DNA of 64,000 nucleotides from Amylostereum areolatum (Eukaryota; Basidiomycota; Agaricomycetes; Russulales; Stereaceae): positions 992,001 to 1,056,000 of the forward strand of contig SAXG01000008.1 in NCBI GenBank assembly GCA_012932865.1, in the 5' to 3' direction. The position numbers and the translations under genes are program-made. The notes beneath the pieces were generated by a model that had not been told where the DNA came from, made no database searches, and saw nothing but the letters and a program-made list of their open reading frames with translations. How positions within the stretch are numbered: position 1 is the stretch's first letter; the number at the start of each line of letters is the position of its first letter. Shown here one piece after another: positions 9,630-56,571 of the stretch.

Positions 9630-9651
9630 CGGCTCGACCGCTTGCGGCCGC
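9630..9651 (+). repeat. left 22-bp terminal inverted repeat of the KDZ element
   Basis: Core CTCGACCGCTTGCGGCC; the same 22 bases occur inverted at 56550-56571. Outward of it, 14 of 22 bases still agree between the two sides. Confidence 0.6.
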
Positions 9652-9785
9652 TGCCCCCCCCCTCCAGGTACAACCCCACGTGATCTCTATTCTCTCCCGA
9701 CACTCGTTCGGGAGCGGCCAAATGATCGGGTAGGGAGAACTACCGAAGCCGATCATCCCTTCCCCTCGTTAGGATTCCCTTTCCC

Positions 9786-9893
9786 GTCGGTACGCACTCC
9801 CCTGTCGGTACGCACTCCCCCGTCGGTACGCACTCCCCTGTCGGTACGTGTTCCCCTGTCGGTATGTGTTCCCCCGTCGGTACGCTTTTGTAC
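9786..9893. repeat. 18-bp minisatellite, about six units
   Basis: Unit GTCGGTACGCACTCCCCT, with variants GTCGGTACGTGTTCCCCT and GTCGGTATGTGTTCCCCC, in direct tandem just inside the left end of the KDZ element. It translates as a TDRG repeat on the minus strand, but no gene structure supports coding. Confidence 0.85.
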
Positions 9894-9969
9894 CCTCGCC
9901 ACTCGGTACACTTTCACTTTTGTTACACTCGCCACACCGCAATAGAAACTACTCTGTCTTCCAAAGTAG

Positions 9970-11348
9970 CTATGAAACAATGGAGCTCGTACCGTCCTCC
10001 ATCTCCACATCCCCGTCCCCACCCAGTTTACCACCTGAGTTACCTGCCGTCGCCTTGACTTCAGCCATCGCACTCGCCACGACTTTCCACCTTAGTGTGA
10101 CTTTTTCCAAACGCTCGGCATAGTCCTTCCGTTGCTCAACAGCCCAGTCTCGCTGCTCTCTGTCAGCAACGGTCTACCTGCGATGCAGGTTCAGGACGTC
10201 GCGACGAGGTACAAGGCGAGGAGAGACGAGGATAGGATCGAGGGGGGCAAGTGATAAACGAAGGTGTGGACCTTCCCCTACAGTACTTAGGGAGGATCCC
10301 CCAGGTAGCCGGAGAATAGAAAAGGTCGAGATGACCCCTCCTCATAGATTAGTGAGCCCTTATATACATGAGGATAAGGACCCAAACGAAGACAAACAAA
10401 GCCGGAGTAGGAGTGGGTCAGGACGGACTACGAAGTGGGTACCACGGAGTACGAAGTGGGTCACAACACGAGGCGAGGTAAGTATGACTCCATGGTCTAG
10501 ATCATGACCGAGGAAGCCGAGAAGTCCGGTATGCCCGAGGGGCCGGACGCGAGGCGAAGCCGATGCGAAGTCCGATGCGAGGTCCGATGGTAAACTATGG
10601 TAAAGTAAGGTCCGATGTATATATTTAGGAGGCGTTCATGACAACGAGTCACCCGAGGCAAAGCAAATGTACCGAAAGCATCGCGTTCTCCAGGAACTCG
10701 ATGAAATCATCCACTGCATCGTATGTCTTCCCGGCCTCCGCAAAAAACCACCACCCAGGCAGAACAACCATCGCCTCCGGGGGCTCTCCCAGCTCAAGGG
10801 CAAGGCGAGGGATGTCACTCCACAAGCCCGGTTCCCCCCCGAAAGACAGGTATTGATGAGCATTCCGTACAATTTGATTTGGTTGAAGGGCCATTCCTCG
10901 CATGCGTGCTACCCCGATCACTGTCATGATCAGGTTCTAAGACAGGTAAGCCAACATTCCAGAAACACATAGAACGACCCACCAGCTCATGTTGTACACA
11001 AACTTTGACGTATGGATCATGATCCCATGCACTTTTGAAGTCACCACTCTCGGGATCCTCATCGGTACACCGTCAGGACGAGGTTTCAGATAACCACCGA
11101 GCTGCTTGCCCTATCCGAGAACCTAGGTATTCAACCATATCCGCTGCACACATTTCGATCAAGGAGGATTGGGACACAGAAGGCGGAATAGGGGATGCCA
11201 TGGAGGGAGGAAAGCAGAGGGGCGTGATGTGGCAGATGTGACAGAAATGCTCGGGACACAAGACAAACGCCCAGCCCTTCGGGACACCAGGCAATTCCCG
11301 AACACTTCTCATAATCGGATTGCAGACCTCTCTCTTGACCACTTGCAC
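9970..11348 (-). pseudogene. unrecognised KDZ-element gene, interrupted by an LTR
   Basis: Minus-strand exons read MQVVKREVCNPIMRSVRELP to EYLGSRIGQAAR, then SGDFKSAWDHDPYVKVCVQHEL, then GMALQPNQIVRNAHQYLSFG to DDFIEFLENAMLS. The last part, beyond the LTR, reads EQRDWAVEQRKDYAERLEK and ends DGDVEMEDGTSSIVS at the TAG 9972-9970. Early residues include CPEHFCHICHITPLC, a Cys/His-rich segment. LTR 10161-10643 separates the last coding parts. It may lie in an intron, since its end TTGCTGACAG could serve as a splice acceptor. No family recognised; it starts close to gene 11.3-12.4 kb on the other strand. Exon borders approximate. Confidence 0.5.
10161..10643 (-). repeat. LTR of the C family (minus orientation), no matching TSD
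   Basis: 483 bp; reads TGTCATGAACGCCTCC to GTTGCTGACA on the minus strand, like the LTRs at 28,202 and 30,660. The flanks are CTCTC and ACGAG, so the expected 5-bp duplication is absent. It shares a CTTGCCCCCCTCGATCC variant with the truncated LTR at 56,681-56,826 and not with the other copies. Loss of the TSD suggests recombination or deletion next to it. Confidence 0.85.
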
Positions 11349-12373
11349 TCATATCAACCGTTGCCACCATCGTTCTCGACCCCTCCTACGAAGAATTCAT
11401 TCATGTTGCCGAGATATATGCTGCCACATCTTGGCTACGCCGTATGCACCAAGACCTCGCCACGCCTGGGAACATCCCGGATTGTTTTCGCGAGAGTCTT
11501 CGTGCCGAGGCGGTAGGTTATGTCTTTCCCCACTTAAACACAAATCTCTCATGATCTCTCAGAGTGACATAATCAGACTGACCGGCCAGTTTTTGGTCGA
11601 GACACCCCAGCATTTGAGCCAGAATCCCTGGCTCGTGGATATATACAATCTCTGCAATGCTCCTCCGCCAAACGTAACTTTAGAAGACCTAGACGTACTT
11701 TTACCGAAGGGTCCGTTGACCCGTGCCGAGGTTCAGGGATGCCGAACAACCGTCAACAACTGGTGGACCGAGCATTTTGTCATCCAGAGTGGCAGAGGCC
11801 GGTCCGCCATTCGGGCGGTTGAAATGTGGCTCGAAAATCCAGTGAGTTCTTTCGAATTCAAGCCCATTGCCCATCTTCTAACAAAGGTAGCCTCTTCGAG
11901 CTCGTCAGTACTACAAAGAGATGCAGGAAAGACATGCAAGCGGAACCTCCCAGGAGCCCAGGATCCTGCCAGATGTGGCAGAAGTCTCATCGGGTGAGTT
12001 TGTCTTCTCCTGCTGGTTCTGTCCTAAACTCTTGGTAGGATTGGGACAAGCCCGTTGCAACATTGAAAGGGTCCTTCGCCAGCATGAAGACCTTGTCAAC
12101 AACTCTCTCGAACGACGAACCGACCTTGTTAACCACCTGAAGGACACCGTGGAGAAGGAGTCGCAAGTTCTCAAAGACATGCATAGAATGTGGGTGTTGA
12201 CAGGAGCAAACCACCTTGCTTGGCAGGGAATTGGCGAGGAGAATCCTGGCGAGGAGAATTCTGGCGAGGAGAATTCTGGCGAGGAGAATTCTGGCGAGGA
12301 GAATTCTGGCGAGGAGAATTCTGGCGAGGGGTCTTTGGCAGGTGATACCATTTCTCCCAAGATGGAGATGTAG
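11337..12373 (+). CDS. KDZ-element protein with C-terminal EENSG repeats
   Basis: Exons ~11337-11512, 11563-11841, 11909-11993 and 12039-12373 join in frame. The protein reads IVLDPSYEEFIHVAEIYAA, then IIRLTGQFLVETPQHL, LLPKGPLTRAEVQGCRTTVN, NIERVLRQHEDLVNNSL and a helix HLKDTVEKESQVLKDMH. It ends with about six EENSG pentapeptides. No ATG opens the frame before 11444, so the 5' end is uncertain and may need an upstream exon or be lost. I do not recognise a family. It lies directly upstream of, and on the same strand as, the dioxygenase and the transposase. Confidence 0.5.
12233..12330 (+). repeat. 15-bp in-frame tandem repeat encoding EENSG
   Basis: Unit GGCGAGGAGAATTCT, about 6.5 copies. 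The first carries CCT for TCT (EENP) and the last degrades into GGCGAGGGGTCT. Confidence 0.95.
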
Positions 12374-12551
12374 CGCCGGGTGTGCTGTACCGAACCCTCT
12401 TAAGTAGTAGAGTACCACAATGTGATGATTGACATTGGCAATCATTACCTCATGTCCGATTGTTATAAGATCTCAATCTTCAAACATCCACTTTCAGACC
12501 CCACCTACCCATTTGATCTCCAAATTCAATCACCCTCATTTTTATCTATTC

Positions 12552-13818
12552 ATGGGCTGGAAGCCAGCCGACGAGTGCACGTCGCCTATTCCTTCGGACT
12601 GGCAGCTGCTCCTTTCTGATTCGGCAGCAGAGTACCTCATTGGCTGCTTTCATGCAGAGCTTGCATCCCGTTCCCATCTCCCTATCCCTGAAGTACCCCA
12701 TCCCCCAGTCATCAGTCGGCAGCTTGCGCAAGAGCTTCGGACTATTGCTGTAGACCTTGCCGAAGCCCTCGGGAGAGAAAGTAAGTCCCCAGTCCTCAAT
12801 GTGCTGCCGAGGTACTCATACATCGCCAGTCGTCATCCCTTTTGATGCCGCACAGTACGTTGCCAGCATTGGAGCACAAGACGGAAGAAATCCACTTGCT
12901 GAGGCAGACTTCATCAAAGCATTTCCTCCCTTGGCAGAGTCCGTCAACTGGGCGTGTGTTGTCACTGACCGAACCAGCAAACTTCTCGCTTGGCTTCTCC
13001 CGGGCTTACTCTCTGAGAAAACCCAGGTATTCCCCCTTCTCATAATCTCCCCACATTGTCTCACATCCTTCAAGGCTCGATTACTAGCATTGGTACATCA
13101 TATACGCGATGCAATGGAGTCCCATGCGCCCCAGGTCAGGCCTAGCGACACGGCAAGTCACTGGCGAGACAACGAAGCCTATTACATGCCTGCCGAGCAA
13201 GCAAAGACTGTGCCGAGAGGGTCAGCAAACTTCACCCCCGCATGGCACCATCTTGCACAAAATGTAACACATTTATTCACATCCTTTTCCTTCTAGCTTA
13301 ATGTCTTGTAGGGCTTCTCATCCAAAATCCAACCCTCAAAAGATCTTCGCAAACACTGGACTAGTGTTGCCAGCTGGATGGAAGAAGTTGCCAAGGATGC
13401 TGCCCTGCTTTCAGCTATCCTGGCTGTTGTCCACCCTCAACTGTACGCGGTGACCAGAGAATGTCTCGTTAGGCTTGGACAACATCCAGAGTTTGCAGAC
13501 CATTTGCAACATTGGGCATTTGTTTTCAATGTAGTTGCAGTCATCGGCAACCGAGCCTCGCCAGCCCACCGAGACCATGCGAGTAGTCGTCCCGAGTGGT
13601 ATGACTTGGTTCTGTCACTCGGTGGCTCTCCGGACACAGTTCTTGAGCTTCACTCGTTCGGTGTCAGATGCTTATGGCCTTCGGGCTCAGTAGCCCTTTT
13701 CTCAGGTTATTTCGTCCTCCACGGTGTCTCGGCAAGTTTAGAAGAACAGCCATTACACACAGCTTGCTCTCTCCCCTATCCACAATGGTCTTATGTCGGA
13801 GATTTCTTACATCGATAG
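12552..13818 (+). CDS. TET/JBP-family 2-oxoglutarate/Fe(II) dioxygenase (KDZ-linked)
   Basis: Probable nucleic-acid-modifying oxygenase; the family oxidises 5-methylcytosine or thymine. Exons 12552-12780, 12830-13026, 13075-13263 and 13312-13818 give 373 residues from MGWKPADECTSPIP. Near the C-terminus NRASPAHRDHASSRPEWYDL holds the HxD iron ligands and the R-x-E/Q-W-Y/F-D-L pattern of fungal TET/JBP proteins. GSVALFSGYFVLHGVS supplies the distal His. The 2OG-binding Arg expected shortly after HGV is not in this frame; FRRTAITHSLL in the +1 frame would fit it, so a frameshift near 13735 is possible. The gene is followed 94 bp later by the KDZ transposase, the association reported for basidiomycete TET/JBP genes. 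Start ATG is the first in frame. Confidence 0.7.
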
Positions 13819-16800
13819 CAGATAGTATTGTGCCTTGGCCTGAAGTCTCTATATACCTTACCTTCCTAATTTCAGTTATTCCTTTCCCTTTCCCCCCTTC
13901 TTCTGTCAAACCATGCGTCGTAATCGAAGTCGCCGCGAGTCCCCCTCCTCTAGCGAATATAGCGAGAGAGAGTCGTACAATTCAAGAGGTGCTCGTATCA
14001 AAACCAGGGTTAAGTCCAAGAAAGCCGAGAAGTTGATACCCTGGGACGACAAGCCAAAAGCAAAGCGTGGACGATCCCAGAAGGCCTCTCCACAGCCGCA
14101 GGCAGGCCCGTCCCAGGCAGGCCCATCCCAGGCAGGACAGTCCGCCCCAGGCCCTACCCACCTGCCTCCCGTTGACTTGTATGGGATTCCACAGGAGTTT
14201 CTCGTTGACAACTACTGGGATGATGAGGAGGACTTTGGCGTTAGGGAGACGAGCACACAAGGAAAGGTGCGTAGCTTGGGCTGTATGCCTTAAGATTCAT
14301 CTGACAGGGATGCTCGGCAGACATCAGTCATGTATATGCGAGAGTGGCTGGACGTAGAGGCCTTGTACCTTCACAAGATTGTTGAAAGAGATGCCCCTCC
14401 CCCGGACAAGCTCTGCCGACGGTGCAAAAATCACGAGGCAACTTGGCGATGCAGCAACTGCTTTCGCGGTCGGCACATGTGCTCTTTCTGCCTTCGGGAA
14501 ACCCATGTGTACACGCCCTTCCACCGAGTACAAAGGTGGAATGGTAAGTTCTATGCTCCCGCCTGGCTCCGTGATGCTGGAGTATGCATCTGTGTGGGCC
14601 ACGACGGAGACGAATGTCCTATGAATCCAATTCCCGAGCTCTCCCGACAGGTTGAAGTTCAAATCCAGGGCTCTTGGGATACCTCGGCCACATCTTCGGC
14701 AGCATCCTCGTCAGCAGCGTTTAAGGATTTGTCAATGTGCGCCCTTGTTCCCGAAGAGGAGGGCCTCACTGTTGACGATGACGATGACCCTGATGACCCT
14801 CGCGTACCAGTCGAGCCCCCCGATTACGCCAAGGATCCTGCCGATGATACCGAGGATGCTGCCGAAGTCGAGGCTGAGGCGGATGCAAAGGAGGGAGATA
14901 CCACCGACGGTCCCATACCGAACAATGAAGCACCAACAACAGACCTTTTTCAAAATAGAGTCATGGTGCTTGTCGACCCTTCAGGCTTGCATCATATTGG
15001 TGTGCGCTTCTGTGTTTGCGGACCTCCTCGGGAGCCAGAGGATCGCCAACTTCTTTCCTGCGGACTGTACCCGGCAAGTCAAGACGTGCCGAAGACCGCA
15101 TTCACCTTTCGGTGTCTTGACGATGCACAGTTAGACAACCTCGAGTGCAAGACAGTTACAAATGCATACATGCGAAAGATTCGACGAGTGACGAAGCCTG
15201 AAGCCCCCAACACAACAAAGGTATTTTCTTTCTCTCCACGTCTCGGTAGCAGATTCTGACTCTCGGTAGACTCGGCTGATCGAGCTATTGAGGATCTGTC
15301 GGCAGTGGCTCGACCTCGGGAATCTGCAACAGTTTGGGTTTGCACACACTCTAATCTTCAAGCGACCTTCCAATGGCGAGCTGGCCTGGTTTTGTGTTAC
15401 CTGTCCTCAAGTAGGAGTGAACTTGTTCCCGGGGTGGGAGAAGGAGCCAGATTCGTAAGTTCCTCACCCACCTCCTGGAAGAGGAGCTCACATTGTCCTC
15501 TAGGTGGAAATTCATACGCTCAGTAGCCATGGATGCGAACATGAGTGCACAGCATGTCAAGTCCCGTGTGCCGGGCAATGATATCGACTGGACGGCTGGC
15601 AATGGCTTCATGGTGTCGCCAGGGCCGTACAAGGAGCACCTCGCTGTGGCAGTGGAAGATGACCCGGTAAGCTTTTAGTCGCTACGTGGAAACCTACTTC
15701 ATTGTCGGTAGACTTGGGAGAAAGCGGATTATCATGACCACACGGCGAGCAAGCACAAAGGGAAGTCGGACAAGAAACACCTGGATGTGACAGGTCTCGT
15801 GGCTGCTGCCTGTGGTCGGCACGGGTGCTTTGTGCCACACTGCGCTTGTGACCTGCAGAAAGGCGAAAAGTATGTGCCTTGTTCTCATCATTTTATCTCT
15901 CTCTGATAAAGTTTAGGCAAGCAAACATGGACTACACCCTAACGCATGCCTTGAACCACAAGATGGAGGGAATACTCCGGGCAATCTACCTCTATGATGT
16001 AGCCTGCCAGCACTACATCAACCTGTCCAAGCGCATCGGCAAGTCACCACATCTCAACCTGCCGAAGTTCGAAGTGTTTCTTCAAGGCGTCGGCATCTGG
16101 CACATATATGCCCACGTCAATGTCTGCCACCCTCGGTTCTATCCTCTATATATCCCAGGCATAGGACTGATTGATGGCGAAATCCTGGAAACCCTCTGGG
16201 CTTTGCTCAACTTGATTTCTACATGCTGCCGAATGATGTCGCTGGCGAACCGAGCGGAAACTCTCAACGCTCACATGAATGACAGCAATTGGAAGAAAAT
16301 GACCCAGATGAGTAGGTTATATTTCTCTGTCTTGATATCTAGGCTCACTGTCTCAGTCCCGACCCTCATCCGCAAATGGCGCAAGGCTCAGAAGGTACTT
16401 CGCCAGCGCACGAAGGCCCTCGCCAAGCTTGACAAAACAATTACCAAAGAGGAGATTGCCGACTGGACAGAAGAGATTCGGCAGGCGATGCAGGAGCGCT
16501 TGAAAGACCCCAAGTCCATGGACAAGTTTATGCCGATGAATATAAAATGTATGCTTCCCCCGAGCTCAGGACGTCCATTCAGTTTGCTAACATGTCGGCA
16601 GACGTATCTCAAAAGGAAGTTGAGATTGAGCTCATCTCTGAGGAGGTTCGCAACAGCGAGAACCCTGGCGATGTGAAATGCATCATTGAGGGGATTGCCC
16701 TCCAAGAAGAGCAGTGAGTCCATCATCAAACTATGTTCGGCAGACATTAATTCTTTGCCAGGCTCCAGCTCCAGGCTTATGTCAGTCAGATGCCCGATAC

Positions 16801-17260
16801 CGAGCGAGAGCATTCCAATGTAGCCCTCTGGTGTCATAAGCTGGCGACCAAGGTGCAAAAACATAACGAGATGGCCAGGGAGCGACTTGGACACCCGCCC
16901 AACCGTCTTCATACGGTTCGCCTTCAGAAGCTTCATACCGAGGACGAATGGGGCTCGGTATCAGCAACACTTTCTGCCGAGGGTCAGCAGCCAGAGTACA
17001 GAGCCGTTGATATTCCTTCGGCACGAGGCAAGACCTGGTGCGACAACCCTGATCACAGAAAGTTTGCTGACATGGAGCTCCGACTTCGGGAAACGAGTGC
17101 CGACCACCACCTGCAGCAAATCTGTCTTGGCTTGGTCGACAAAGCCAACCAGTATCGAGTGGCAATTCGCAAAGTGCAGAATGTTGCCAGAGGGGTCTCG
17201 TCACACACCCGGGGTATGAATGCTGTGCATTCCCTCAACAAGACGGTCCGGCTGCATACG

Positions 17261-17719
17261 TGTCATGAACGGTCTATAATTTTCTTTTTTACTTTACATC
17301 GGTTACACGCTTTAGGACTTATTGGCTTATCACCGGTCCGGCTCCACTTCGGCCCGGACCCGGTTCATCTATATCCCACCCGGGCCCACGTGACTCATCT
17401 CGGCCCGGGTCTGACTCCTTTCCCTTGACTCATGCTGTACAATACTGACTCATGCTGTGCTCTTTTACATACGACTGCTTACTTATACTAGGTCTGCTTA
17501 CTGATCGCCGTGTATCGGTTGCTTACCTAAGTCTCTCTCCTCTTGTGTATATAAGGCTCGCTCTCGCTGTACATATCCCTTATCTCGAGCTAGTCAATTC
17601 TACCGACTTTGCTTGCTTTCCCTCGTCTGTCGCCGTGTCTGATCGGCTCCCCTCTGTCGTCCTCATCTTCTAGTCAGCTGTGTCGTAACTTGGTGCTGTC
17701 GCACTAGTCGTTGCTGACA
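17261..17719 (+). repeat. 5' LTR of element A
   Basis: TGTCATGAAC to GTTGCTGACA, 459 bp. TATA-like GTATATAAGG at about 17547; about 30 nt later ATCTCGAGCT matches the complement of the PBS. Confidence 0.97.
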
Positions 17720-17733
17720 TAAGCTCGAGATCT
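17720..17733 (+). promoter_or_regulatory. primer-binding site of element A (self-priming type)
   Basis: TAAGCTCGAGATCT directly after the LTR. AGCTCGAGAT is the exact complement of ATCTCGAGCT in the LTR near the expected transcript 5' end, as in Tf1-type self-primed elements; no tRNA 3' end (TGG) is matched. Confidence 0.65.
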
Positions 17734-18540
17734 GTTTACTCTTGCACCACCCTACGACCGTCCCTACGTACTGTAGCGTAGTAGTAGTAGTACCCGTCTG
17801 GTACTGACCTTGTTCTTCCCCCGTGCCGCCCTAGACCGTTGCCCCCAGAGTACGCGACTCGTTACCCTGACATTGTGGTCGTGCGCACGTATACCGGTGC
17901 CGGCTTGACGTTTCCTCGAAACGTTACACCTACTCGAGACTCTCCAATACCAGGAGTTGAAAGCTCAGAGGTGACAGTAGAAGGTGCACCTTTGGTGTAG
18001 GAAACGAGTAAAAGCGGCGAAAGGAAAGCGGTTTAGGAAGTCTTTGGGCTCGTGTCCCCTAGACGAAGAGACAGCCAACAGGTCGAGAAGACTGAGGCAG
18101 ACCGTCTTGCGATCTCATAACAGAACCACCCTCCCTCGACAAAATCTTCCCTTGCCGCACAGAGTAACCATTTCGACTGGGGGCTCGTGCATGGAAGATT
18201 GGTGCTCGCAAGTACAAGAATTCATCCCCATCAGCCACGACGCTATCATCTCCCTCATCAACGAATCTAGAGACCCTTGGGCCTGGCACAATTGGAAGGT
18301 CGCCCTCGGCGTAGAAGAACTTGAAGACTCCATCATAGACGTCCACTTCTATCGCCTCAAAATAAGCGAACAAGGAAACGGAAACCTCTACGTCTACTCC
18401 TGCCCATACGTCACCTACCGCTACAAACTCGAGCAACCCCCAAAAACCTTCTACGCGCCCAACGAGAAAATACCAGTGGACACTCGACACACCCACCGCC
18501 TCCTTACACCAGGCAACACCCCCAGCCCCACACCAGAGCC

Positions 18541-18612
18541 AGAGGTCATCGACCTCACCCAGCCAGAGGTCATCGACCTCACCCAGCCAGAGGTCATCGA
18601 CCTCACCCACTT
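18541..18612 (+). repeat. 24-bp in-frame tandem repeat encoding EVIDLTQP
   Basis: Three units around GAGGTCATCGACCTCACCCA. VIDLT is a canonical SUMO-interacting motif (established knowledge); three sit in a row just before the Gag TAA. Confidence 0.9.
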
Positions 18613-20169: not shown

Positions 20170-20179
20170 GGGTTTTTGA
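20170..20179 (+). promoter_or_regulatory. candidate -1 ribosomal frameshift site of element A
   Basis: Gag codons GAG GGT TTT TGA contain G GGT TTT, a canonical X XXY YYZ slippery heptamer, immediately before the Gag stop. The Pol frame is -1 and opens exactly here. Confidence 0.65.
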
Positions 20180-30647: not shown

Positions 30648-30659
30648 AAAAGGGGGTAA
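30648..30659 (+). promoter_or_regulatory. polypurine tract of element C
   Basis: AAAAGGGGGTAA immediately before the 3' LTR. Confidence 0.7.
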
Positions 30660-35292: not shown

Positions 35293-35316
35293 CCTCTACA
35301 CTAGCTCACCCTACAG

Positions 35317-46700: not shown

Positions 46701-46713
46701 TAGACTGTCCAGG

Positions 46714-47133: not shown

Positions 47134-48887
47134 ACACCCTGGTGCACAAACCAGGAAGTACAAATAAAGCGGACGGACTTTCTAGAAGATCAGATCATAA
47201 AGAAGATATCCCAGACAACGATGAACGAATTCTACTCCACCCCTCTATATTCAAGGCTAGAGCCACTGGAAGGGGAGCAGTAGAAGCGATCGGAGACAAA
47301 GAACTTCTCAGAGAACTAAGGAACTTCTCACACCTAGATGATGAAGTTTGGACAGCGCTCGATACGATCAAAAGATCGGGACCACGTACCCTCGCAAAAG
47401 GAATCGAAGATTGGAACTTCGAGAACGATCTGATCATCAGAAAAGGAAAGATCTATGTACCACAGAACCTCGAACTGCGACGCATGATCCTAAAATCGCA
47501 TCATGATCTCCAGACGATTGGACATCCAGGAGAAATGAAAACTCTAGAACTGGTACAAAGAAACTTCTGGTGGCCAAAGATGATTTCCTTCGTAAAAAGC
47601 TATGTCCAAGGATGTCCCGTATGCCAGTCAACAAAGAATGTCACGCATCCGGCAAAACATCCACTACAACCTACGGAAATACCAGAACGACCATGGGAAA
47701 CAATCACATCAGATTTTATTACAGATCTTCCGATCTCCAACGGATTCGATTCGATCAACGTAGTCGTCGACAGGTTCACCAAAACCGCAGTATTCACGCC
47801 GTGCCTAAAGACGATCAACGCAGAAGAAACAGCTGATCTTCTGATCGACAATGTTTACAGACGATTTGGACTATGGAAAAGAATGATATCGGACAGAGGC
47901 CCTCAATTCGCATCCAAAGTATTCCAATCCATCTGCGAAAGTCTCAGAGTTATCTCGTCGCTCAGTACAGCGTATCATCCCCAAACGGATGGCGAAACAG
48001 AAAGAGTGAATCAAGAGTTAGAACAATATCTTCGAGCATTCTGCAACGGAGATCAAACGAATTGGGCAAAACTTCTACCAAAAGCAGAATTCGCACACAA
48101 TATAAGACAACATTCAGCTACGAAAGCTTCCCCATTTGAACTCCTACACGGGTATCAACCGGTTTTTAACCCGGCAATACCAACCGATCCGCGAATACCG
48201 ACAGCCGAAGAAAGAATAAAGAACTTTAAGGACGCATGGGACAACGCAGAAGCAAGTCTGGAAATAGCTGCCAAATTAATGAAAATGCAGCATGATCAAA
48301 CGTCCACACTGCGAGATCAACTCAAACAGGGTGACCAAGTATGGTTAGACGGGAAAAATCTTAACACGGTATACCCGAAAACTAAACTAGCACCAAAGCG
48401 ATTTGGCCCATTCAAAATCGAAAAAGTAATAGGACCAGTAACCTATCGCTTAGAACTACCGGCGAAGTGGAAAATACATCCGGTATTTCACGCGGCACTA
48501 TTAATTCCGTTCAAAGAAACAGAACAATATGGAGAAGCTTACGAAAAACCGCCTCCGGAACTAGTAAACGATGAAGAACTCTATGAACTAGAAACAATAA
48601 TAGCCTCGAAACTAGACAAACGATATTCTGAACCATTACATTATTTCGTAAAATGGAAAGGCTACCCAGACTCCGGTAACACATGGGAACCAGCATCTAA
48701 TCTCAAAGGATCAAAAGATGCGATCACAGAGTTCCACCGGAATAACCCGAAGGCACCGAGATTGCCACCACAGCCAATCAAAGAGACCAACGAAGAATCT
48801 ACTGATCTCGACGAGATCACGGTAACGCAACAAGAACGAATGCCAACACGACGAAAGAAACGCAAGACGAAAATAAAACACTGGTGA

Positions 48888-49235
48888 AACTCATTCAGGT
48901 GAATGCACTGCCAACAGAGAGGGGATAAAAACCCTATGGGTTCAACGAGACAGAACACCAATGTCCACCACCCCACACGCAGCCGACACCTCTTCCACCA
49001 ATCCAATCGTCACTCCCAGCAATGTCGACCACCTCCGTTTCATTTGCAACAAAGTACACCACACCCAGCAGGAACGAACCCTCTGCGGAGACTGCTTCAT
49101 CGCTCGATCCGCAACTATCCTCGCAATTAAGTCGGCATCTCCTCCGTCTAGGTCAGGACCAGACGGAAGAACAAGGGGTAAGCCGCTTAGAAGCACACAG
49201 AAGAACCCCAACTGAAGCGCCTGGATTCCTCACAG
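48888..49235 (+). other. spacer between Pol of B and the extra 3' frames
   Basis: About 350 bp with overlapping short open frames (one starts MSTTPHAADTSSTNP at 48961); none shows a domain. It may contain an alternative start for the downstream frame. Confidence 0.4.
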
Positions 49236-50921
49236 GTGCTAATGCAATCCCCGTTGCCAGGAGCAACAGAAGTACAAACGCCCGATTCCCCGATGCTAGA
49301 AAGTCAGATAGCCCACATGATAGCCGGAGTAGCTCTCGAGCAGGCCAGGGAGCGGATCAGCGAACTCAGGCAGGAGTCGGCCGACGTCCAGAGCATCTTG
49401 GGGAATCACATCAAGATGCTCGACAAGGAGTTTCTTCAGCTAGACTCGAGGTACCTAACGCTCTCGACCGAGATGGAGGAGAGGGAGGTCAAACTCCTTT
49501 GACGACTCCGGAAGCTAGCGCAGCAGCTATACTCAACGTCGCAGAGCTCCGAAAATTCCTTACTGAAGTCGGACTCAGAGTTAACTGGCTTAACTGGGAA
49601 AGACACACCTTCCGTGCCGCCTACGAAGGAGAAATCCTCCGAAGACGAATGGAAACTACTGGAGTTCCCCATATGTCTCCACGAGACGGCCCTGACATCG
49701 ACCTTATCTTCCATGGACATCACATCTCCCCGGGCTATACTGTTCGATCTGATCCCATCACGACCACCCTCACCAGATCCCCGTACCCTCCTAACGCCCC
49801 TCCGCGGCCCGTCACCGCTCATACTCTGCCAAGATCCATACCCATCCCCGGCCTCAACCACATTAACCCCATCCAGCCTCCCGTCATTGGAAACGACATA
49901 CCCGGAAAGTACACCGGACAGCCCCGTACTCCCCCAGACCCCAGACAGCCAACCAGAAGATTCCCAACGGAAAATCCGCGACGAGTACCTTGGGCACCTT
50001 CTTCACTGCCAGCGGTGCCTAGACCGCCAACTCCTTTCCCAACTTCTATTGACGACGCTCCCATGCCTTGGAACGGAAATCCCCCTGCTTATCCCTCCTT
50101 CCTACGCCCACACCCCGACCACACTAGTGATCCCATCGCCCAAGATCCCCGAGTCACCCCACAGCGACGTAAACATGAATCTGTCAACTCCGACGGAAGA
50201 TCGCTCAAGCGGATCAGAGACGTCGACTTCCCCGATAAGTTGGGCGATGAGGAACTGCGACAAGATCCAGGAGATAATCCAACAAATGAGGGAAATCCAA
50301 GCTCGCGGGAGACAGGAGCGCGAGTCAACGGACGAATCGGACAGTTCGGCGGAGGAATCGGACGATCCGACGGACGACCAAGCGAAGGAAGTAACCGAGA
50401 ATCCCTCGGACTGGAAGAACGACGAGCCGACCACATGGACGCAGGAACAGTGGGACGCGATTCCTGTGAAGCCGCGGAAACGCTGCTGGAAATGCGGCGA
50501 GCGAGGCCATCTCCGCCGAGACTGTCCCCGTCGCAAGAACGCTCCCCCTCACTTCCCCCGATCACGGTCATGCTACCCTCTCCGACCACGGACTCCTCTT
50601 CCTCGCCCGAGCCATCCGGATACCAGCTACGGTCCAGGAACACTGATGTCCCACCCCCACCTCCAACGTACCGACGCTACCGCCCGCGCCCACAGACAGC
50701 TTCTGGGCTTCCTCACGCGACATGAGAGCCTGACTCACGAAGCCGCCCAACACGCCACCGAACAGTGGCTGTACTGGGAGGACGCGGCACTCCGCACTCA
50801 GCGGGAACCTCCCTCGCGATTCAACCACTCTTGGCGCGTCGACGATCTCTTCTGGAAAGAAGAGGACTGGGACTTGCAAGAAGTGGAAGAGTCGAAGGTT
50901 CACTGGCCGGAGACTTGGTAA
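49236..50921 (+). pseudogene. extra Gag-like ORF of element B (coiled coil plus zinc knuckle), one in-frame TGA
   Basis: Frame starts near MLMQSPLPGATEVQT with a strong coiled coil (MIAGVALEQARERISELRQE, IKMLDKEFLQLDSRYLTLST). It has a TGA at 49500-49502, then continues in the same frame: RLRKLAQQLYSTSQSSENSL, a Pro/Ser-rich middle, acidic STDESDSSAEESDDPTDDQ, a CCHC knuckle CWKCGERGHLRRDC and a C-terminus ending KVHWPETW. It lies downstream of a complete Gag-Pol, where Ty3/Gypsy elements normally end or carry env. The overlapping 567-codon frame is less protein-like. Function unknown; nucleic-acid binding is suggested by the knuckle. Confidence 0.6.
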
Positions 50922-51348
50922 GCACACGGACGATCTTTCATCCATCACACGCACTCGGACTATCTTTCTCATCATCACCGTCATCATCATCATTTACGTC
51001 TCCGTCTCGTTCCCATCATCCCGCATTTACGATTTCTCCTTACGATACTCCTCGGACTGATCACGGACTGCGCCCTCACTCGCACGCATATTTTCCTCGG
51101 ACTTCTCTACTGTACGGGTTCCTATCGCTATGAGGAAGGCGAAACGTTTGGCATCTTTCACTGCGACGCGCTGGACGCATCGCTTACTTACGACTCATGT
51201 CTGATTATGTACGAGCTTTCACTTACGATTGACGGCAATGATTACATCATTGCCCCTCCACATCGCAAGCATAAAAGGAAAGCCACAAAGGTGATAACAT
51301 CCTCAGACATCGTCTAACCAACCCACTCGCACCAACCAAACCAACAAA

Positions 51349-51732
51349 ATGTCTTCTACTCTTACTTCCTCATCGTGCAACCTCTCTACCACCGACTGCA
51401 CTCCTCCTACCACCCCTCCTCCCTCGCCAGTCCCATCGCGCACTCCCACGCCCGACCCACGCGACGAAGAACTCCTTCGTCATCTCAAGCGAGTCACGGA
51501 ACTCCTAAGCCGTCCAGACGTTGCTCGCGCCATGAAGAGGCCGAGAAGCCTCGACGAAGAAGCTATGCAAGAATCGAAGCGAAGATGCGGCATCCGCGGA
51601 CTCTTCCAAAAGCATGGACCCCGGTTCAAGAGCCCGGATCACGCGACGACGGCGAGGATAGGGCATCGGTTAGGGGCTACTACGATAGATAAGGAGGACC
51701 TGAAAGTAGTAGAGGCGTTGTTAAAGCGATAG
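51349..51732 (+). CDS. extra small ORF of element B
   Basis: 127 codons from MSSTLTSSSCNLSTTDC: Pro/Ser-rich start, then a helical basic part (DEELLRHLKRVTELLSRPDV, ARAMKRPRSLDEEAMQESKR) and DKEDLKVVEALLKR. No family recognised. It lies between the knuckle ORF and the membrane ORF on the same strand. Confidence 0.45.
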   Translation: MSSTLTSSSCNLSTTDCTPPTTPPPSPVPSRTPTPDPRDEELLRHLKRVTELLSRPDVARAMKRPRSLDEEAMQESKRRCGIRGLFQKHGPRFKSPDHATTARIGHRLGATTIDKEDLKVVEALLKR

Positions 51733-51805
51733 AATAGAATTCTATCATTGAGGTCCGGGCAAGGATATAAAGAGTGAACATCAGAAAAACGACAAACCCA
51801 GAAGC

Positions 51806-52147
51806 ATGATGCAATCAGCGCAATCACCCGATCTATCGATTTTCAATACGCCCACTCCTCGATGGCTCATCGCCGTAGTCAGCATCATCGTAGGACTTAC
51901 GGTCCTCACCTTCCTCGCATCAACCATATTCCTTCTCCAATGGCGAAGAGCGAACGACCGACAACACGTTCAAGACATCCCTCTAGAACCACTTCGATTC
52001 AGGAATCTACGAGACGTAGATTCTAGAGAGGGGGATAGTGTTACAACTCGTTCAAGGTACTTCATTTCCTGTTGCCTTATTAGGAAGGACGTCGCTAAAC
52101 AACGAATTACGACTGTGCCCCAGCTCGTAACCGTTCCAACGACATAG
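51806..52147 (+). CDS. extra ORF of element B with one transmembrane segment (env-like position)
   Basis: 113 codons from MMQSAQSPDLSIFNTPTP. A hydrophobic stretch WLIAVVSIIVGLTVLTFLAS then TIFLLQW is followed by basic RRANDR, the look of a single-pass membrane anchor with a cytosolic basic flank. The frame runs through the PPT into the 3' LTR. The place between Pol and 3' LTR is where env-like genes sit, but there is no signal peptide or fusion motif, so env homology is not claimed. Confidence 0.5.
   Translation: MMQSAQSPDLSIFNTPTPRWLIAVVSIIVGLTVLTFLASTIFLLQWRRANDRQHVQDIPLEPLRFRNLRDVDSREGDSVTTRSRYFISCCLIRKDVAKQRITTVPQLVTVPTT
52025..52038 (+). promoter_or_regulatory. polypurine tract of element B
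   Basis: AGAGAGGGGGATAG immediately before the 3' LTR. Confidence 0.8.
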
Positions 52148-52588
52148 CCGCGACTGTGCCACAGTTCGTCGGCATCTCAACAACACAGCTACGACAGTGC
52201 CACTGTTCGTCGGCATCTCGACAACGCAGCCTTGACTGTGCCCCAGTCACGTCCCCGTAGATACTCGATGCGATCGTTGCTCAATGTACATATATTTACT
52301 CGACCTCCTCTCTTATAAAAGGAGGCTCAACGAACGAGCCATTCCCCAGCTCGTTCTCTTTGTAAATACAGGACTGTTCTGAATAAGAACCTCCTCTTAA
52401 GCACTAAAGAGAATCCTAAGCCTACTAAGTCGATAGACTCGCCTAAGTCTTCCGCGAAGACTTACTGCTTCGTCTATCGACCTTCACCTTCGTATAACCG
52501 AGACGTCTGGATCACCTGATCCCACCTCTCACACGTAAGAGTACTGTAGCCTGAGCCGCTTGTCACGTGATAAGGACCGTCCTTAACA
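52039..52588 (+). repeat. 3' LTR of element B
   Basis: 550 bp; four transitions relative to the 5' LTR, three in CpG context. Confidence 0.97.
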
Positions 52589-54085
52589 GGAGCTTTCTTC
52601 GCCTCCTCGGCAGTCGTCTTCTCCTCGGCAGCCTTCTTCGATGTGGTCTTCTCCTCGGCAGCCTTCTTCGACGTGGTCTTCTTCGCCTTGCTCATTGCCT
52701 GGCCTTGGCCTTGCCATTCGGCAACGGTGGGCATCGGTTGCTCGGAAAACTCTGAGGTAATGTTAGTTGAATTCGTACCGAGCATGCAAAGAGTTCTTAC
52801 CCGGGTACTGGAGCACCGGCTGAGTCAACCTTGCCGAGAGCGCCTTCAGGCTTTCCTCGGTCAGCCTGCCAGTCTCGGTGAGCCTGCGGACAAAGGCTCC
52901 TCCAATGCCATCCTCGGTGGAGGGCTGCGTACGTTGCGGCACTGTTGTGGCTGCACTTGATATTGCGCAGGCTGCAGGGGCTGCAAGAACCAGAGACACC
53001 CCAGTAGCAGGGGTAGTTGCCTGCTTCACAGTTCGTGCAAGGTTCCTGTAAGTCGGTAAGTCGACAGAAATGGAGCGGAGGAGATCGGTACGGGACGTAC
53101 CTCATGTGCCGGGTGGTCTGGGTGCAAGCCCCAGCATTCGGGATGCTGCCGAACGTCGTTGTAGACGTAGTTTTCGCCCTGCGGGGTATTCCACATCCTG
53201 TTTTTGCGCTCGACAAGATCGGCAAGGTGCTCAGCAGACTGGTCATCGGGAGGGTCGATGGGTCCGGTGACCTGCGCCCGGTGCCTCTTGCCTTTGGCCT
53301 TCCCGGAACCTTTGCCTTTCTCGCCAGCTGCCTCGGTGTCCTCGTCTGCGTCCTCGTTCGGCAGATCTTGTGCCTGTTGTTGAGTGTTGTCCTCTTCATC
53401 GGAATCTTCCACTGTCGCCTTGCTGATGTTGCGCCTAGGCATGGTTGACCTTTGGCAGGAAGGGCGAGACGGGGTAGCGGGGGTGCGAGAGACAGACTTG
53501 TCCCAAGTCTGGCGACGGCCGCGTGTTGGGGGGTCGGTAGATGGTGAAGTCGTGGAGGCGGCATCGATGGCCCGCGGGGCACGGGAATGTGAACCCGTTG
53601 GCTGGGGTGCCAGATCGGTGGACTCTTCTGCAGTAAACATGAGACGAATGAGATAAGATCAGTTGGCGGCGACATACAGAGTGCTATCCACCACTGATCT
53701 GGGCCCGGGTCCGCAATCTCCTCTAGTGGCTGATCGAGGAAAGGGGGGGGCGGTGGCAAATCGGTTCGCCATGACATCTGCCGTGATAGTATCCCCCTCT
53801 CCAGGGTTGCAGATTTGGTTGTAGACGTAGCGAACGAACTTGTGCCAGTTTTGCGGTTCCGCTGCACGATGCTGTGGATATAATGAGGATCTGAAAATGG
53901 GAGACAATCGGCAGACGCACCCATTCCTCCACAAACTTCCCAATCCACTTAAAATGAACCTCTGGCGAAGCGTGCTTGAGTGCGAGCCACGCTCGGTACG
54001 TTTGGTAGGCCGTTACACGGTTGATGATAAGGGAGCCCCGGTTGGCGAAGGCTTCCCATGCTCTGCTCGTGGCGGCGGCGGACAT

Positions 54086-54449
54086 GGTGAGGAAAATGAT
54101 GCGATGGGGGCAGAACAGAGAGGGTTCAAAACTGTAAAGTATAAGGCAGAGACATTTGCACTCCGCTCGGCAGATGGGTCCGGTGCGGGCCCGGACTGAT
54201 AACAATCGGGCAAGCAAACACACTTTTGACAACTTCACCGTACTCGGCAGCCTTGACAGATTGTTGCCGAACTCAGGCACACGTTGCTTACTTCGACGCG
54301 TTGTCGCTTACGGTGCCAGAAAAGGGAATGATTTAGGCTCGGATCGGCATATGTTATGTCACGTGGCAAAGTCTTGCCTCTGCATCTTCACACGACTTAT
54401 TTTCCGTCCACCACCTGCCACGTCGACCACCGAAAGCCTCACCCCAAAC
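54086..54449. promoter_or_regulatory. shared upstream region of two divergent KDZ-element genes
   Basis: 364 bp between the ATG at 54085 (minus) and the ATG at 54450 (plus). No clear TATA. A bidirectional promoter is inferred from the arrangement. Confidence 0.35.
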
Positions 54450-56051
54450 ATGCCCACCTCAACCCCCTTCACCATTCGTCGGCCTCCTAATCATGAAGTT
54501 CCTTCACCTGGTGTCCCTCCCCCTCGGTACGTGATTCGGCGCCCACCGCCTGAAACCGAAGAACTGGCGAGAGGTATGAACACCTCTCCGGTACCTTCCC
54601 CAAACCCTACCCCCGCGCAGTTCACCATCCGGCGACCCGCTCCCTCTCAGCCATCCCCTCACCCCGTCCAATACACAATGCAGTGTCAAGAACGACCGAC
54701 TAAGGAATGCATCCAATAGCCTTCTAAGTCGCGACACAGGCAGTGGCTCAGAGGAAGGGGGAATCAGGGAATAAAGGGAGAACAGTACATTGCACTCTAA
54801 GCCGGTAAAGACTAGGAGGAAAGACTAAGGAACTAGATACATGCAGGCCAGCTATATATACTAGGGAGGGGATGTGCACAGACCAAGGGGCACATCAGCG
54901 ATGCCATCAAAGGGGATTGATCCACAGGTGTAAGATCAGATAGCGCGAGAAAGCAAGGAAAAAGCGGAGCAAAAGGGAGAACCGTGACATGCAGGGGCCT
55001 CACAAACAGGTCGAACCTGAGGGAATGCCAGCTGCCGAGGAGGCCTCGGCATGGCCCATACGTCATCCCGCCTTCACAATTCGCCGGCCACCTCAACATG
55101 TTCCCCCCTCTTCCCTTTCTACCTCCCCTCCCACTGTGTTTACCTTTCGGCGGCCCCCACCAGATGCAAGAGACGAAGATGCTTCTGGGCAGCTAGACCC
55201 CGCTTCCTCGGCAGCAGCTGGTATGCCTGGGCCTTCTGTGGGATGCTACGTCATCCGGCGTCCGCCTGAAACAAATGCCTCGGCAGGATCAAGGCCTGGG
55301 GCCGGGGGCTGGACTTTCCCCTCTGCCCCGTCCTCACCGCCCAAGTCTCTTGTGCCGCCCATGTCCCCTACTCGACCGCGGATTCGCAACCAACAAGCGA
55401 CCCCGTCCCGGGGGATCCTGACGAGGTCTGACCCCGACCTGTCTCCCGAGCACGCTGCTCTGATGAAGGCTTCAAAGCCATGCGCGTCCTGGGACAACTC
55501 GGTGACAGGGGTCAGCGGTCGGCCGTCCTTCAGGGTGGGTCGGCAGGAGCGTGCCGATGGGCTTGCAAACGGTGAGTGGACCCTGCGTATTTCACCTGTT
55601 GATCTAACAACTCTCAGAATCCTGGCCTACCGCCGCCGAACCCTCCAACGGCACCCTGGACGCGGCATTGGAGGGATCCAACTTGCCAGGTGAGTTTTTT
55701 TTTGATTGTGCTGCCGACGGGTATGGATTTGACCATCCGGCAGAGCACAAATCGTATCAAGAGTGGCTGAATTTCCTGGATCGCTCTCCCGAGGCTCCAG
55801 CCCTACCGGACGATGTCATGGACGCTGCCGGTCCTCAGCTTACCTTGGCGTGGATGAGCATCTACCGAGACGCTCGGCGGATTGCTCAGAACCTGAAGAC
55901 GTACGACCACATGCTGAGTGTCCTCACCCAAGATGAGAATACCCTGCATCGTATGAAGGAGGAGCTGGTGGCTCTGATGCGTGCCCGGTATGTTAGTGGA
56001 GTGGAGGATATCAGGGAAGAGGGTCGAGACAGAAAGCGGTCCCGAACGTAA
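54450..56051 (+). pseudogene. IRRPP-repeat protein, KDZ-element gene split by a solo LTR
   Basis: Starts MPTSTPFTIRRPPNHEV. Six copies of a short motif, (F/Y)(T/V)(I/F)RRP(P/A), are spread through a Pro-rich N-terminal half: FTIRRPP, YVIRRPP, FTIRRPA, then beyond the LTR FTIRRPP, FTFRRPP and YVIRRPP. A GT-AG intron near 55573-55618 precedes a folded-looking C-terminus (EHKSYQEWLNFLDRSPEAP, WMSIYRDARRIAQNLKTYDH, RMKEELVALMRARY) ending RDRKRSRT, a likely nuclear signal. The only break seen is the solo LTR at 54684-54989. No family recognised. It faces away from the coiled-coil gene. Confidence 0.6.
54684..54989 (-). repeat. solo LTR, 306 bp, separate family
   Basis: TGTCAAGAAC to ACCGTGACA as written (minus orientation judged by the TATATATAGC on that strand), TSD TGCAG at 54679-54683 and 54990-54994. 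It resembles the element D LTR at the ends only (AAGTCGCGAC and CGTGACA). Confidence 0.93.
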
Positions 56052-56146
56052 GATTCCTCGGTACAGTGTTGTTTTCGCTTGTAGTTTCCTGGGGGAGGTT
56101 TTAGCGTGGCGGGAGGACAAAGTCATCTGTTTGGGATGATTGGCTA

Positions 56147-56218
56147 CCCTCGGTAGGTGGAGCGGTCTGCCGACTGCGAGGAACAAGTGGTTCGGCAGAC
56201 CACTCCGCCTACCGAGGG
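56147..56218. terminator. 27-bp stem hairpin after the IRRPP-repeat gene
   Basis: Arms 56147-56173 and 56192-56218 (CCCTCGGTAGGTGGAG against CTCCGCCTACCGAGGG, continuing through GGTCTGCCGA) pair almost perfectly around an 18-nt loop, about 100 bp beyond the stop codon. It could be a transcript end structure or a subterminal repeat of the KDZ element. Confidence 0.6.
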
Positions 56219-56549
56219 TTCATCTCGAACGGACGATTTCGTATTGCCTGCCGCCGAGTGTAGGGGTTCATTATTGGTCATAGTATATTTGTTGTAGCCT
56301 ATTCAAATCTTGGTAGCATGTTTGTAACACGGATGTATTGGAAATAAAACATGGGATACATGGTACCGACACAGTAATTCTAGCGAGCGGTGGCTAGGGG
56401 ATGTGTAGCGAAGACATCCTGGCGAATGGTAAATTAGACCGAGGTCCTGGCGAAGCGGATACCGGCAGAGGGGGTGCTGGGAGACAACCGAGGGGGCGGC
56501 CGCGCCATTTGGATCGAAACACGCTGGGGGGTGGAAAATCCTCTCATAT
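56219..56549. other. right subterminal region of the KDZ element, no gene
   Basis: About 330 bp after the hairpin. It contains A/T-rich 3'-UTR-like sequence with AATAAAAC near 56344 and no coding. The last part (GGGGGCGGCCGCGCC, then GCGGCCGC) is CpG-rich up to the terminal repeat. Confidence 0.45.
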
Positions 56550-56571
56550 GCGGCCGCAAGCGGTCGAGCCG
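56550..56571 (-). repeat. right 22-bp terminal inverted repeat of the KDZ element
   Basis: Exact inverted copy of 9630-9651. Confidence 0.6.

Follow-up and report, generated by a model that had tools for sequence, protein, structure and literature searches.

Most cut-and-paste transposons of eukaryotes carry one or two genes. The 64,000-nucleotide stretch of the Amylostereum areolatum genome analysed here (the window) contains a KDZ transposase gene and a TET/JBP dioxygenase gene in the company of several further genes, the whole interrupted by younger insertions. It was investigated whether these neighbours belong to the same mobile element and, if so, whether they are passengers or parts of its machinery.

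Boundaries of the element and later insertions

The first-pass annotation of the window had proposed an element of about 17.8 kb beneath 29 kb of later insertions. This estimate was borne out by a copy on contig C1, which lacks the window's insertions and measures 18,055 bp. Relative to C1, the window copy (47,073 bp) contains five insertions of 483 + 7,538 + 2,932 + 17,852 + 305 bp, which together account for 29.1 kb of its length (Table 1). Each LTR insertion had been described as having a target site duplication; 5-bp duplications were found at the junctions of four of the five insertions, and insertion 1 was without one. The earlier statement that exons split by insertions rejoin in frame receives indirect support from the C1 copy, in which these insertions are absent.

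The same annotation had placed the ends of the element at a 22-bp inverted repeat. The repeat is perfect between both arms of the window copy, and its role as terminus was ruled out: because homology between copies reaches approximately 65 bp beyond it and stops at 7-bp duplications, the repeat is subterminal. All five complete copies have the termini CACACC...GGTC in common, and each is flanked by a perfect 7-bp duplication, all five of which differ. The element thus begins with CA and finishes with TC, and its two ends are only loosely alike. A target duplication of 8 bp, also considered, matched the window and C14 copies and not the remaining ones.

A search of the 57.1-Mb genome for the 22-bp repeat, with up to three mismatches allowed, returned 14 occurrences (13 exact and one with a single mismatch); a reversed-pattern control at the same tolerance returned none genome-wide. 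The repeat is a candidate transposase-binding site. With the left-end pattern, again at up to three mismatches, 14 matches were obtained, comprising nine true ends (0-1 mismatch) and five matches with three mismatches; the latter did not surpass the background given by the reversed pattern (26 matches). This genome search recovered no end belonging to the more distant KDZ families.

Table 1. Features of the element in the window (positions counted from the first nucleotide of the window).
Feature	Position	Strand	Remarks
Whole element (CACACC...GGTC)	9564..56636	+	Homology limit among five copies and 7-bp duplications
Target site duplication CATTGCA, left	9557..9563		Flank of window copy
Target site duplication CATTGCA, right	56637..56643		Flank of window copy
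22-bp subterminal inverted repeat, left arm	9630..9651	+	66 bp inside element end
22-bp subterminal inverted repeat, right arm	56550..56571	-	65 bp inside element end
Subterminal tandem array	9786..9885		18-bp unit, 5.6 copies
Gene alpha, orphan	9973..11350	-	Matches at 9973-10161 and 10640-10936; outer limit approximate
Insertion 1, solo-LTR-like	10161..10643		Replaces ~100 bp of element
Gene beta, orphan	11351..12487	+	Bears EENSG repeats; limits from C1 model
TET/JBP dioxygenase gene	12524..13806	+	Tet_JBP match 13351-13734; limits approximate
CxC2-like KDZ transposase gene	13913..25360	+	KDZ domain 15520-16289; insertion 2 inside; limits approximate
Insertion 2, LTR retrotransposon	17258..24795		LTRs 100% identical over 459 bp
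Gene basic, orphan	26025..32290	+	~930-950 aa in models; Lys/Arg-rich C-terminus; insertion 3 inside
Insertion 3, LTR element	28204..31135		LTRs 98.8% identical
Coiled-coil/polyQ gene	32554..54098	-	Zn2Cys6-like cluster at 52953-53039; insertion 4 inside
Insertion 4, nested LTR retrotransposons	34730..52581		Outer LTRs 99.3%, inner LTRs 99.3% identical
Gene IRRPP, proline-rich repeats	54463..56156	+	Conserved C-terminal part 55617-56045; insertion 5 inside
Insertion 5, 305 bp	54684..54988		TGTCA start, TGACA end; 5-bp duplication TGCAG

Gene content

Gene models were obtained with a simple home-made predictor, and gene limits in the window were transferred from the C1 models and are approximate. 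Seven genes were counted: alpha, beta, TET/JBP, a CxC2-like KDZ transposase, basic, a Zn2Cys6-like coiled-coil/polyQ gene (polyQ) and IRRPP. The eight genes of the first-pass annotation were not retained as such, as its Cys/His-rich gene is best read as the CxC2-like part of the transposase and its 'small' gene found no match. Its list also has no recognisable entry for alpha, which lies on the minus strand close to the left end.

The presence of KDZ (PF18758) and Tet_JBP (PF12851) domains between the 22-bp repeats was confirmed. The KDZ domain scored 121.3 bits in the C1 model (cut-off 26.6), and 85.3 and 47.5 bits in window exons. The CxC2 match in the C1 transposase model (E 1.4e-4, 22.4 bits) lay under the cut-off of 27; among relatives of the transposase of a second family (see below), all 14 proteins listed carry PF18803 and 11 of them also PF18758. 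For Tet_JBP, the C14 model scored 33.5 bits, just below the cut-off of 34.9, and a genome search gave 46 bits for C14 and 39.8 bits for the window; the match to C1 ends at position 106 of the 164 of the profile. The best PDB matches of the TET/JBP protein were CcTet chains (E 7e-11), with HRD aligned to HRD in the HxD motif. On its relation to CcTet and on the motif, the protein was assigned to the AG type.

Among the extra genes, alpha is broken in the window copy by insertion 1 and the loss of approximately 100 bp. Its upstream exons follow from the model and from similarity, judged by eye, to its relative P0015, whose predicted fold had a pLDDT of 37.7. An alpha profile search found one unnamed protein, and none in the PDB. 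Alpha and beta are transcribed divergently. Zn2Cys6 (GAL4-type) clusters have the spacing CX2CX6CX5-12CX2CX6-8C. This spacing was present in the polyQ protein of all five complete copies and of the second family, and the pattern had two stop-free matches in the six frames of the whole window; the C1 frame of the polyQ gene gave no match, up to E 1, to the corresponding Pfam family (PF00172). No Pfam family scored above its cut-off in the extra-gene pieces scanned, and an HMG domain was likewise without a match in the pieces scanned. For the basic protein, no homologue was found in a set of 5.8 billion proteins (7,996 candidates scored). A KDZ control search of this set recovered 14 proteins, 12 of them with fungal names; since fungal proteins were matched, the set includes fungi, and it may miss fast-evolving or unannotated genes.

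Copies, unoccupied sites and a second family

Comparison with unoccupied sites covered two copies, those of C1 and the window, and such sites were found for both. The C1 copy splits a gene that runs without interruption at C115, where 600 of 600 joined bases align (99%). At the window's insertion site, five counterparts are continuous across the junction (joined bases 1-338, 97-99%), two of which were inspected base by base. Left flanks differ among eight copies, save for one common to C69 and C128, whose copies represent one shared insertion.

A second element (C128:646405-671861) has identical termini and its own 7-bp duplication, ATACCCC. It carries relatives of all seven genes (TET, KDZ, basic, polyQ, IRRPP, alpha and beta), of which the proteins compared (all but beta) are 37-69% identical to those of the window's family over aligned codons, and its gene arrangement differs only by inversion of the TET-KDZ block. 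Within this genome, the results support the view that the further genes belong to the mobile element, as the first-pass annotation had supposed of its six: they recur between the same ends at five sites (with beta and TET each largely missing from the C45 copy), with differing 7-bp duplications and with unoccupied sites for the two copies compared, again in a diverged second element and, in the case of three of them, beside KDZ in more distant families. The joint recurrence between repeats and the empty sites elsewhere that it had suggested looking for were thereby both encountered in this genome.

Outside the window's family, and among the KDZ matches listed, 14 of 15 alpha loci have the gene downstream of KDZ and in the same orientation. 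Beta follows KDZ on the opposite strand at six of seven loci, and basic lies upstream on the opposite strand at five of seven. These counts were read by eye from genome search tables and each includes the second element; C75 and C102 have identical coordinates, so that the value for alpha may equal 13 of 14 independent loci. Alpha, beta and basic were approximately 20-66% identical to their counterparts in other families over the matched stretches, and alpha and beta form a divergent pair in three families. Searches with polyQ and IRRPP gave relatives in the two close families only. TET-KDZ copies without these neighbours in other genomes had been named in advance as evidence against a common element. 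In this genome, six TET-KDZ loci (C164, C158, C134, C95, C107 and C137:186-190 kb) gave no extra-gene match at the search sensitivity used, so the extra-gene set may not be universal among such loci.

Selective constraint and alternative explanations

Ratios of non-synonymous to synonymous change (N/S) were summed over the copies covering each gene, with C69 excluded and TET taken from three copies (C14, window and C94). Normalised N/S relative to the C1 copy was 0.34 for alpha, 0.45 for beta, 0.44 for basic and 0.38 for polyQ, as compared to 0.41 for KDZ and 0.35 for TET; with C1 as the single reference, these are small, non-independent counts. IRRPP, at 0.95 within the family, was nearly unconstrained, and beta in the window copy alone gave an N/S of 1.18. 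By this measure of sequence change within the family, constraint on four of the five extra genes is similar to that on the transposase; IRRPP is the exception. Between the two families, pS was 0.75-0.84 and pN 0.20-0.44 over the alignable codons of six genes (tblastn-alignable stretches only, with the main exon standing for alpha, and beta excluded), with pS at 0.75-0.77 for basic (836 codons), polyQ (512), alpha (157) and IRRPP (132).

These values bear on the explanation that the extra genes are passengers, that is, genes captured from the host on a single occasion by an ancestral element and playing no part in its transposition, like the cargo of giant transposons. Such an origin would agree with the nearly free evolution of IRRPP, with the restriction of polyQ and IRRPP to two families, with the existence of the C45 copy, which is largely devoid of beta and TET, and with the lack of a recognised transposition-linked domain in the extra-gene pieces scanned. 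It does not, however, account for transposase-like constraint on alpha, beta, basic and polyQ, for the position relative to KDZ that alpha, beta and basic keep across diverged families, or for the scarcity of unlinked copies of alpha and beta among the KDZ matches listed, and we consider it unlikely. At least three of the extra genes adjoin related transposases at other loci of the genome, and do so in a recurring layout, so that they probably belong to the machinery of the element instead of riding along with it.

If the element were an ordinary member of the TET-carrying Kyakuja published in 2025, its extra frames being mispredicted or decayed non-coding DNA, it would share the 7-bp duplications, the CA start and the CcTet-like TET of the published description, as far as its available passages go (PMC12730594), and the simplicity of the gene predictor could be held in favour of this explanation. 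Yet similarity at the protein level of basic, polyQ, alpha and IRRPP at the pS values given above is unexpected for non-coding DNA, as is a within-family N/S near 0.4 for four of the five extra genes, which makes this explanation very improbable. Least credible of all is that segmental duplication or recombination spread a cluster of host genes in which a small TET-KDZ transposon happened to lie. The inversion of the TET-KDZ block as a unit resembles a separate module and would fit this explanation. Taken as a whole, however, the family argues against it through exact common ends, a separate 7-bp duplication at each site (five differing ones and that of the second family), unoccupied sites and left flanks that differ in all but the pair noted above.

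Proposed mechanism

The element is thus very likely a complex KDZ-superfamily DNA transposon that moves by cut-and-paste and carries seven genes, the extra ones being integral helpers. In the proposed mechanism, the CxC2-like KDZ transposase would recognise the terminal CACACC and GGTC as well as the 22-bp subterminal repeat, excise the element and insert it via a 7-bp staggered cut. The TET/JBP protein may oxidise 5-methylcytosine in the element's DNA, thereby opposing methylation-dependent silencing. Alpha, beta, basic, the Zn2Cys6-like coiled-coil/polyQ protein and IRRPP would be helpers retained by element-level selection. For basic and the Zn2Cys6-like protein, composition suggests, as a best guess, DNA binding or an effect on the element's transcription and chromatin; alpha and beta, as a divergent pair, might work together.

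A bolder proposal, which we put forward tentatively, is that the seven genes form one co-adapted machine, in which the transposase and the demethylase-like enzyme cooperate with an obligate set of at least three orphan proteins (alpha, beta and basic, with two more in this branch) that assembles a transposition complex or reverses silencing. The set would be old enough to have been handed down through several transposon families of one genome, with some block-wise rearrangement. If true, such a machine would parallel, in a eukaryote, the multi-gene transposons of bacteria. The combination of TET/JBP with five extra genes in one KDZ element, at least three of these genes in fixed arrangement and four under selection, suggests that mushroom transposons built up a toolkit of several proteins that serves both movement and escape from DNA methylation. 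The orphan proteins provide a concrete list of candidates for testing, and the exact ends enable complete elements to be found.

Comparison with known systems

KDZ elements and their linkage to TET/JBP are said to have been first defined by Iyer et al. in 2014 (PNAS), several of these elements reportedly encoding further proteins, among them one with a divergent HMG domain. The TET/JBP-KDZ linkage is shared with the window element; the HMG domain had no match in the pieces scanned.

TET+ Kyakuja DNA transposons of Agaricomycetes, in the passages available (PMC12730594), likewise link a KDZ transposase to a TET/JBP related to CcTet, the latter being described there as oxidising 5mC (Kojima 2025). 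Shared features are 7-bp target duplications (here at all five complete copies of the family and at the second element), the CA start and the absence of long terminal inverted repeats; TET+ Kyakuja of L. bicolor have 5'-CA..TG-3' termini and no terminal inverted repeats (PMC12730594). In contrast, the window element ends in GGTC instead of TG, has a perfect 22-bp subterminal inverted repeat and contains five further genes, none of which the main-text passages on Kyakuja mention (PMC12730594). On these features the element is labelled Kyakuja-like only.

KDZ1-3 of Cryptococcus neoformans, of ~9-11 kb, with 4-8 bp duplications and experimentally demonstrated mobility, also have a Zn-chelating CxC domain in the transposase, which is CxC1 there and CxC2-like here. 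According to the passages available, they differ from the window element by terminal inverted repeats of 139-241 bp and by naming of only the transposase, as against seven genes (PMC12810828). In Pleurotus ostreatus, a CxC2 region precedes all intact KDZ copies, comparable to the CxC2-like part of the transposase in the window element; the KDZ passages of that study describe no further element genes (PMC7641404). IS3EU elements with TET and an alpha-kinase are likewise fungal DNA transposons of conserved gene order, but, in the passages available, belong to another superfamily and have 6-bp duplications and three genes (PMC12730594).

Starships, the giant cargo transposons of Pezizomycotina, are also multi-gene mobile units. 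No Pfam match to a tyrosine-recombinase captain was obtained among 20 pieces of the C1 copy; in what was available on Starships, these combine a tyrosine recombinase with many accessory genes, whereas the window element combines a KDZ transposase with a small recurring gene set. The titles, abstract beginnings and passages of the literature on KDZ elements yielded no description of the five extra genes. While KDZ-TET linkage was already known, what is new in the window element is the order-conserved gene set that accompanies it.

Ends of the element and unoccupied sites

A search of the 57.1-Mb genome (182 contigs, designated by C-numbers) identified 14 occurrences of the 22-bp repeat, 13 exact and one with a single mismatch, and none of a reversed-pattern control. 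The first-pass annotation had correctly described this repeat as a perfect inverted repeat in the window (9630-9651 and 56550-56571). Ten of the occurrences formed five pairs and four were unpaired. Although the same annotation had placed the limits of the element at this repeat, comparison of copies showed homology for a further ~65 bp outward at both ends, where it stopped. All five complete copies started with CACACC, ended with GGTC and were flanked by perfect 7-bp duplications, all five different. The limits of the window element were therefore based on these common ends and duplications.

Complete copies of the first family and the second-family element
Element	Location	Spacing of paired 22-bp repeats	Basis or termini	7-bp duplication
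Window copy	window 9564-56636	46.9 kb	common ends and 7-bp duplications	CATTGCA
C1 copy	C1:2739413-2757467	17.9 kb		AGCCGCC
C14 copy		25.4 kb		GTTCGAT
C45 copy		15.7 kb		GTCCGGG
C128 copy (first family)		42.7 kb		GAGGTCT
Second-family element	C128:646405-671861		CACACCTTAT...ATATAGGGTC	ATACCCC

A left-end scan with 0 or 1 mismatch yielded eight first-family loci and one locus of a second, diverged family; at 3 mismatches, five more matches were obtained, not better than the control. Since C69 and C128 have one flank in common, these two represent one insertion and seven of the eight left ends are independent. A right end at C1:2645109 was part of another, truncated copy. Duplicate or allelic contigs are apparently present in the assembly: KDZ, TET and alpha have the same coordinates on C75 as on C102, and the flank of the C128 copy recurs on C69.

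Unoccupied sites, for which the first-pass annotation had suggested a search, were found for the C1 copy (on C115) and the window copy (five loci). When the flanks of the C1 copy were joined minus one duplication, 600 bases matched C115:16623-17222 unbroken (99%), and an open frame reads around the junction. The gene interrupted in an exon by this copy presumably belongs to the YggS/PROSC family. Further versions, whole or related, occur at C1:2772766 (84%) and on C122 (73%); because versions are present there and on C115, either several copies of the gene exist or the assembly contains both haplotypes. Flanks of the window copy matched the five other loci unbroken over the junction (joined bases 1-338, 97-99%), indicating insertion into a repeat. 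All three unoccupied sites that were read base by base across the junction, out of six in total, carried a single copy of the 7-bp word. The defined ends, the 7-bp duplications and the sites without an insertion mark the element as a mobile unit.

Gene content

Conserved frames served to train a simple gene predictor, whose calls were combined with Pfam and with comparison to the second family. This confirmed a multi-gene element with KDZ and TET, with seven genes instead of the eight proposed initially: alpha(-), beta(+), TET(+), KDZ(+), basic(+), polyQ/Zn2Cys6-like(-) and IRRPP(+). The KDZ domain of the C1 model scored 121 bits (Pfam cut-off 26.6), and CxC2 in the same transposase model scored under the cut-off. 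The supposed separate Cys/His-rich gene is most simply read, from protein architecture, as the N-terminal part of the KDZ transposase, as CxC2 and KDZ were combined in a single protein in 11 of the 14 proteins found with the transposase of the second family. Tet_JBP was present too in two of these 14, from Sparassis crispa and Bondarzewia mesenterica. The occurrence of all three domains in one annotated protein (P0001 and P0006, relatives of this transposase) may mean that the block is sometimes one transcript, or is merely predicted so.

In the C14 copy, the modelled TET scored 33.5 bits, slightly below the Pfam cut-off of 34.9; among solved structures its best relatives were chains of CcTet (E 7e-11), the HRD of each being aligned with the other. 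In the genome search, matches to the Tet_JBP profile (length 164) ended at 163 in C14 and C94, at 145 in the window and at 106 in C1, and these early ends indicated that some copies have decayed. The C45 copy, which has both ends and its own 7-bp duplication, lacks ~2.3 kb spanning the larger part of both beta and TET, and is a natural TET-less derivative. The polyQ protein of all five complete copies contained C-X2-C-X6-C-X7-C-X2-C-X6-C, which we take to be the spacing of Zn2Cys6 clusters, as did that of the second family; Pfam gave no Zn2Cys6-type match in this protein. The scanned pieces of the extra genes yielded no match to any Pfam family above cut-off.

Selection was assessed as the normalised replacement/silent ratio (N/S) relative to the C1 copy, summed over whichever of six copies (C14, C45, C128, window, C94 and C171) covered the gene. 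Summed values, which share C1 as reference and rest on small counts (13-90 silent changes per gene), were 0.34 (alpha), 0.45 (beta), 0.35 (TET), 0.41 (KDZ), 0.44 (basic), 0.38 (polyQ) and 0.95 (IRRPP); single-copy values scattered (e.g., beta 1.18 in the window copy). On these sums, alpha, beta, basic and polyQ look constrained about like the transposase. IRRPP as a whole looks less constrained than the transposase, although its C-terminal part is conserved between the two families.

Later insertions in the window copy

Relative to the C1 copy, which at 18,055 bp is free of them, the window copy contains five insertions (483, 7,538, 2,932, 17,852 and 305 bp; sum 29.1 kb). The initial size estimate of ~17.8 kb was therefore correct to ~1.5%. 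Four of the five insertions have 5-bp duplications; the first (483 bp) stands in place of ~100 bp of the element, with no duplication seen. LTR identity was 98.8-100% in four measured pairs. One LTR family has copies at window positions 28202-31141, 10161-10643, 37921-38411 and 56692-56834, within and just beyond the element and in both orientations, and ~140-160 bp of it matches at least 31 further genome places.

Recurrence of the gene set

The gene set recurs in the second family, and part of it in more distant families. Relatives of all seven genes occur together between the same termini, which both families share; their DNA is alignable in short stretches only, and no shared inverted repeat of at least 10 bp was found in the compared end pieces. 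The second-family order, alpha(-), beta(+), KDZ(-), TET(-), basic(+), polyQ(-), IRRPP(+), differs solely by inversion of the TET-KDZ block. Amino-acid identity over aligned codons was 69% for KDZ and TET, 53% for basic, 52% for IRRPP, 42% for alpha and 37% for polyQ (pS 0.75-0.84, pN 0.20-0.44), and beta showed 52% identity over 63 residues. A gene adjoining the second-family element presumably encodes glucose-6-phosphate isomerase, and a frame between alpha/beta and KDZ is, we assume, a retrotransposon gag.

Alpha gave 27 genome matches. Outside the window's family, with the second family included in each count, it occurred at 15 loci, at 14 of them downstream of KDZ on the same strand within ~13 kb; ten of these 14 also had a TET match. 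With 155 KDZ matches taken as separate loci and 30 kb allotted to each, KDZ neighbourhoods would cover ~8% of the genome, so that 14/15 is far from chance. Beta had KDZ within ~10 kb at six of seven such loci, downstream and opposite in all six, and basic was upstream of and opposite to KDZ at five of seven. Relatives without a listed KDZ in the expected place were those of alpha and beta on C56 (C56:587999, C56:412858) and of basic at C148:256547 and C108:423040; they are remnants or unlinked genes. Judged by these positions, the order alpha, beta, KDZ, TET, basic looks ancestral, and the window's family would have acquired the inversion later. In the genome searched, relatives of polyQ and IRRPP were found in the two closer families only. 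TET-KDZ loci on C164, C158, C134, C95, C107 and C137:186-190 kb had no match to any extra gene, these being either absent or diverged past detection.

In a set of 5.8 billion proteins, basic had zero relatives and alpha one, P0015 (232 aa; E 5.5e-27), which lies on a contig of 1,258 bases; a KDZ control returned 14 proteins, 12 with fungal names. The KDZ and TET genes and their relatives indicate a basidiomycete fungus as the source of the genome.

Proposed mechanism and relation to known elements

From knowledge of these protein families, the KDZ transposase would cut and join the element, possibly binding at the 22-bp repeat, and TET would oxidise 5mC and counter silencing. Composition suggests that the basic and Zn2Cys6-like proteins may act on DNA or chromatin and that alpha and beta might function as a pair.

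A 2014 study of KDZ elements reportedly mentioned additional encoded proteins. No description of the five-gene set was found in the titles, abstract starts and passages searched, drawn partly from first-ranked papers. KDZ-TET linkage is already known, and TET in such elements has been argued to oxidise 5mC and counter silencing (Kojima, 2025; PMC12730594). In Pleurotus, a CxC2 region precedes intact KDZ copies (PMC7641404), an arrangement that the window element probably shares.
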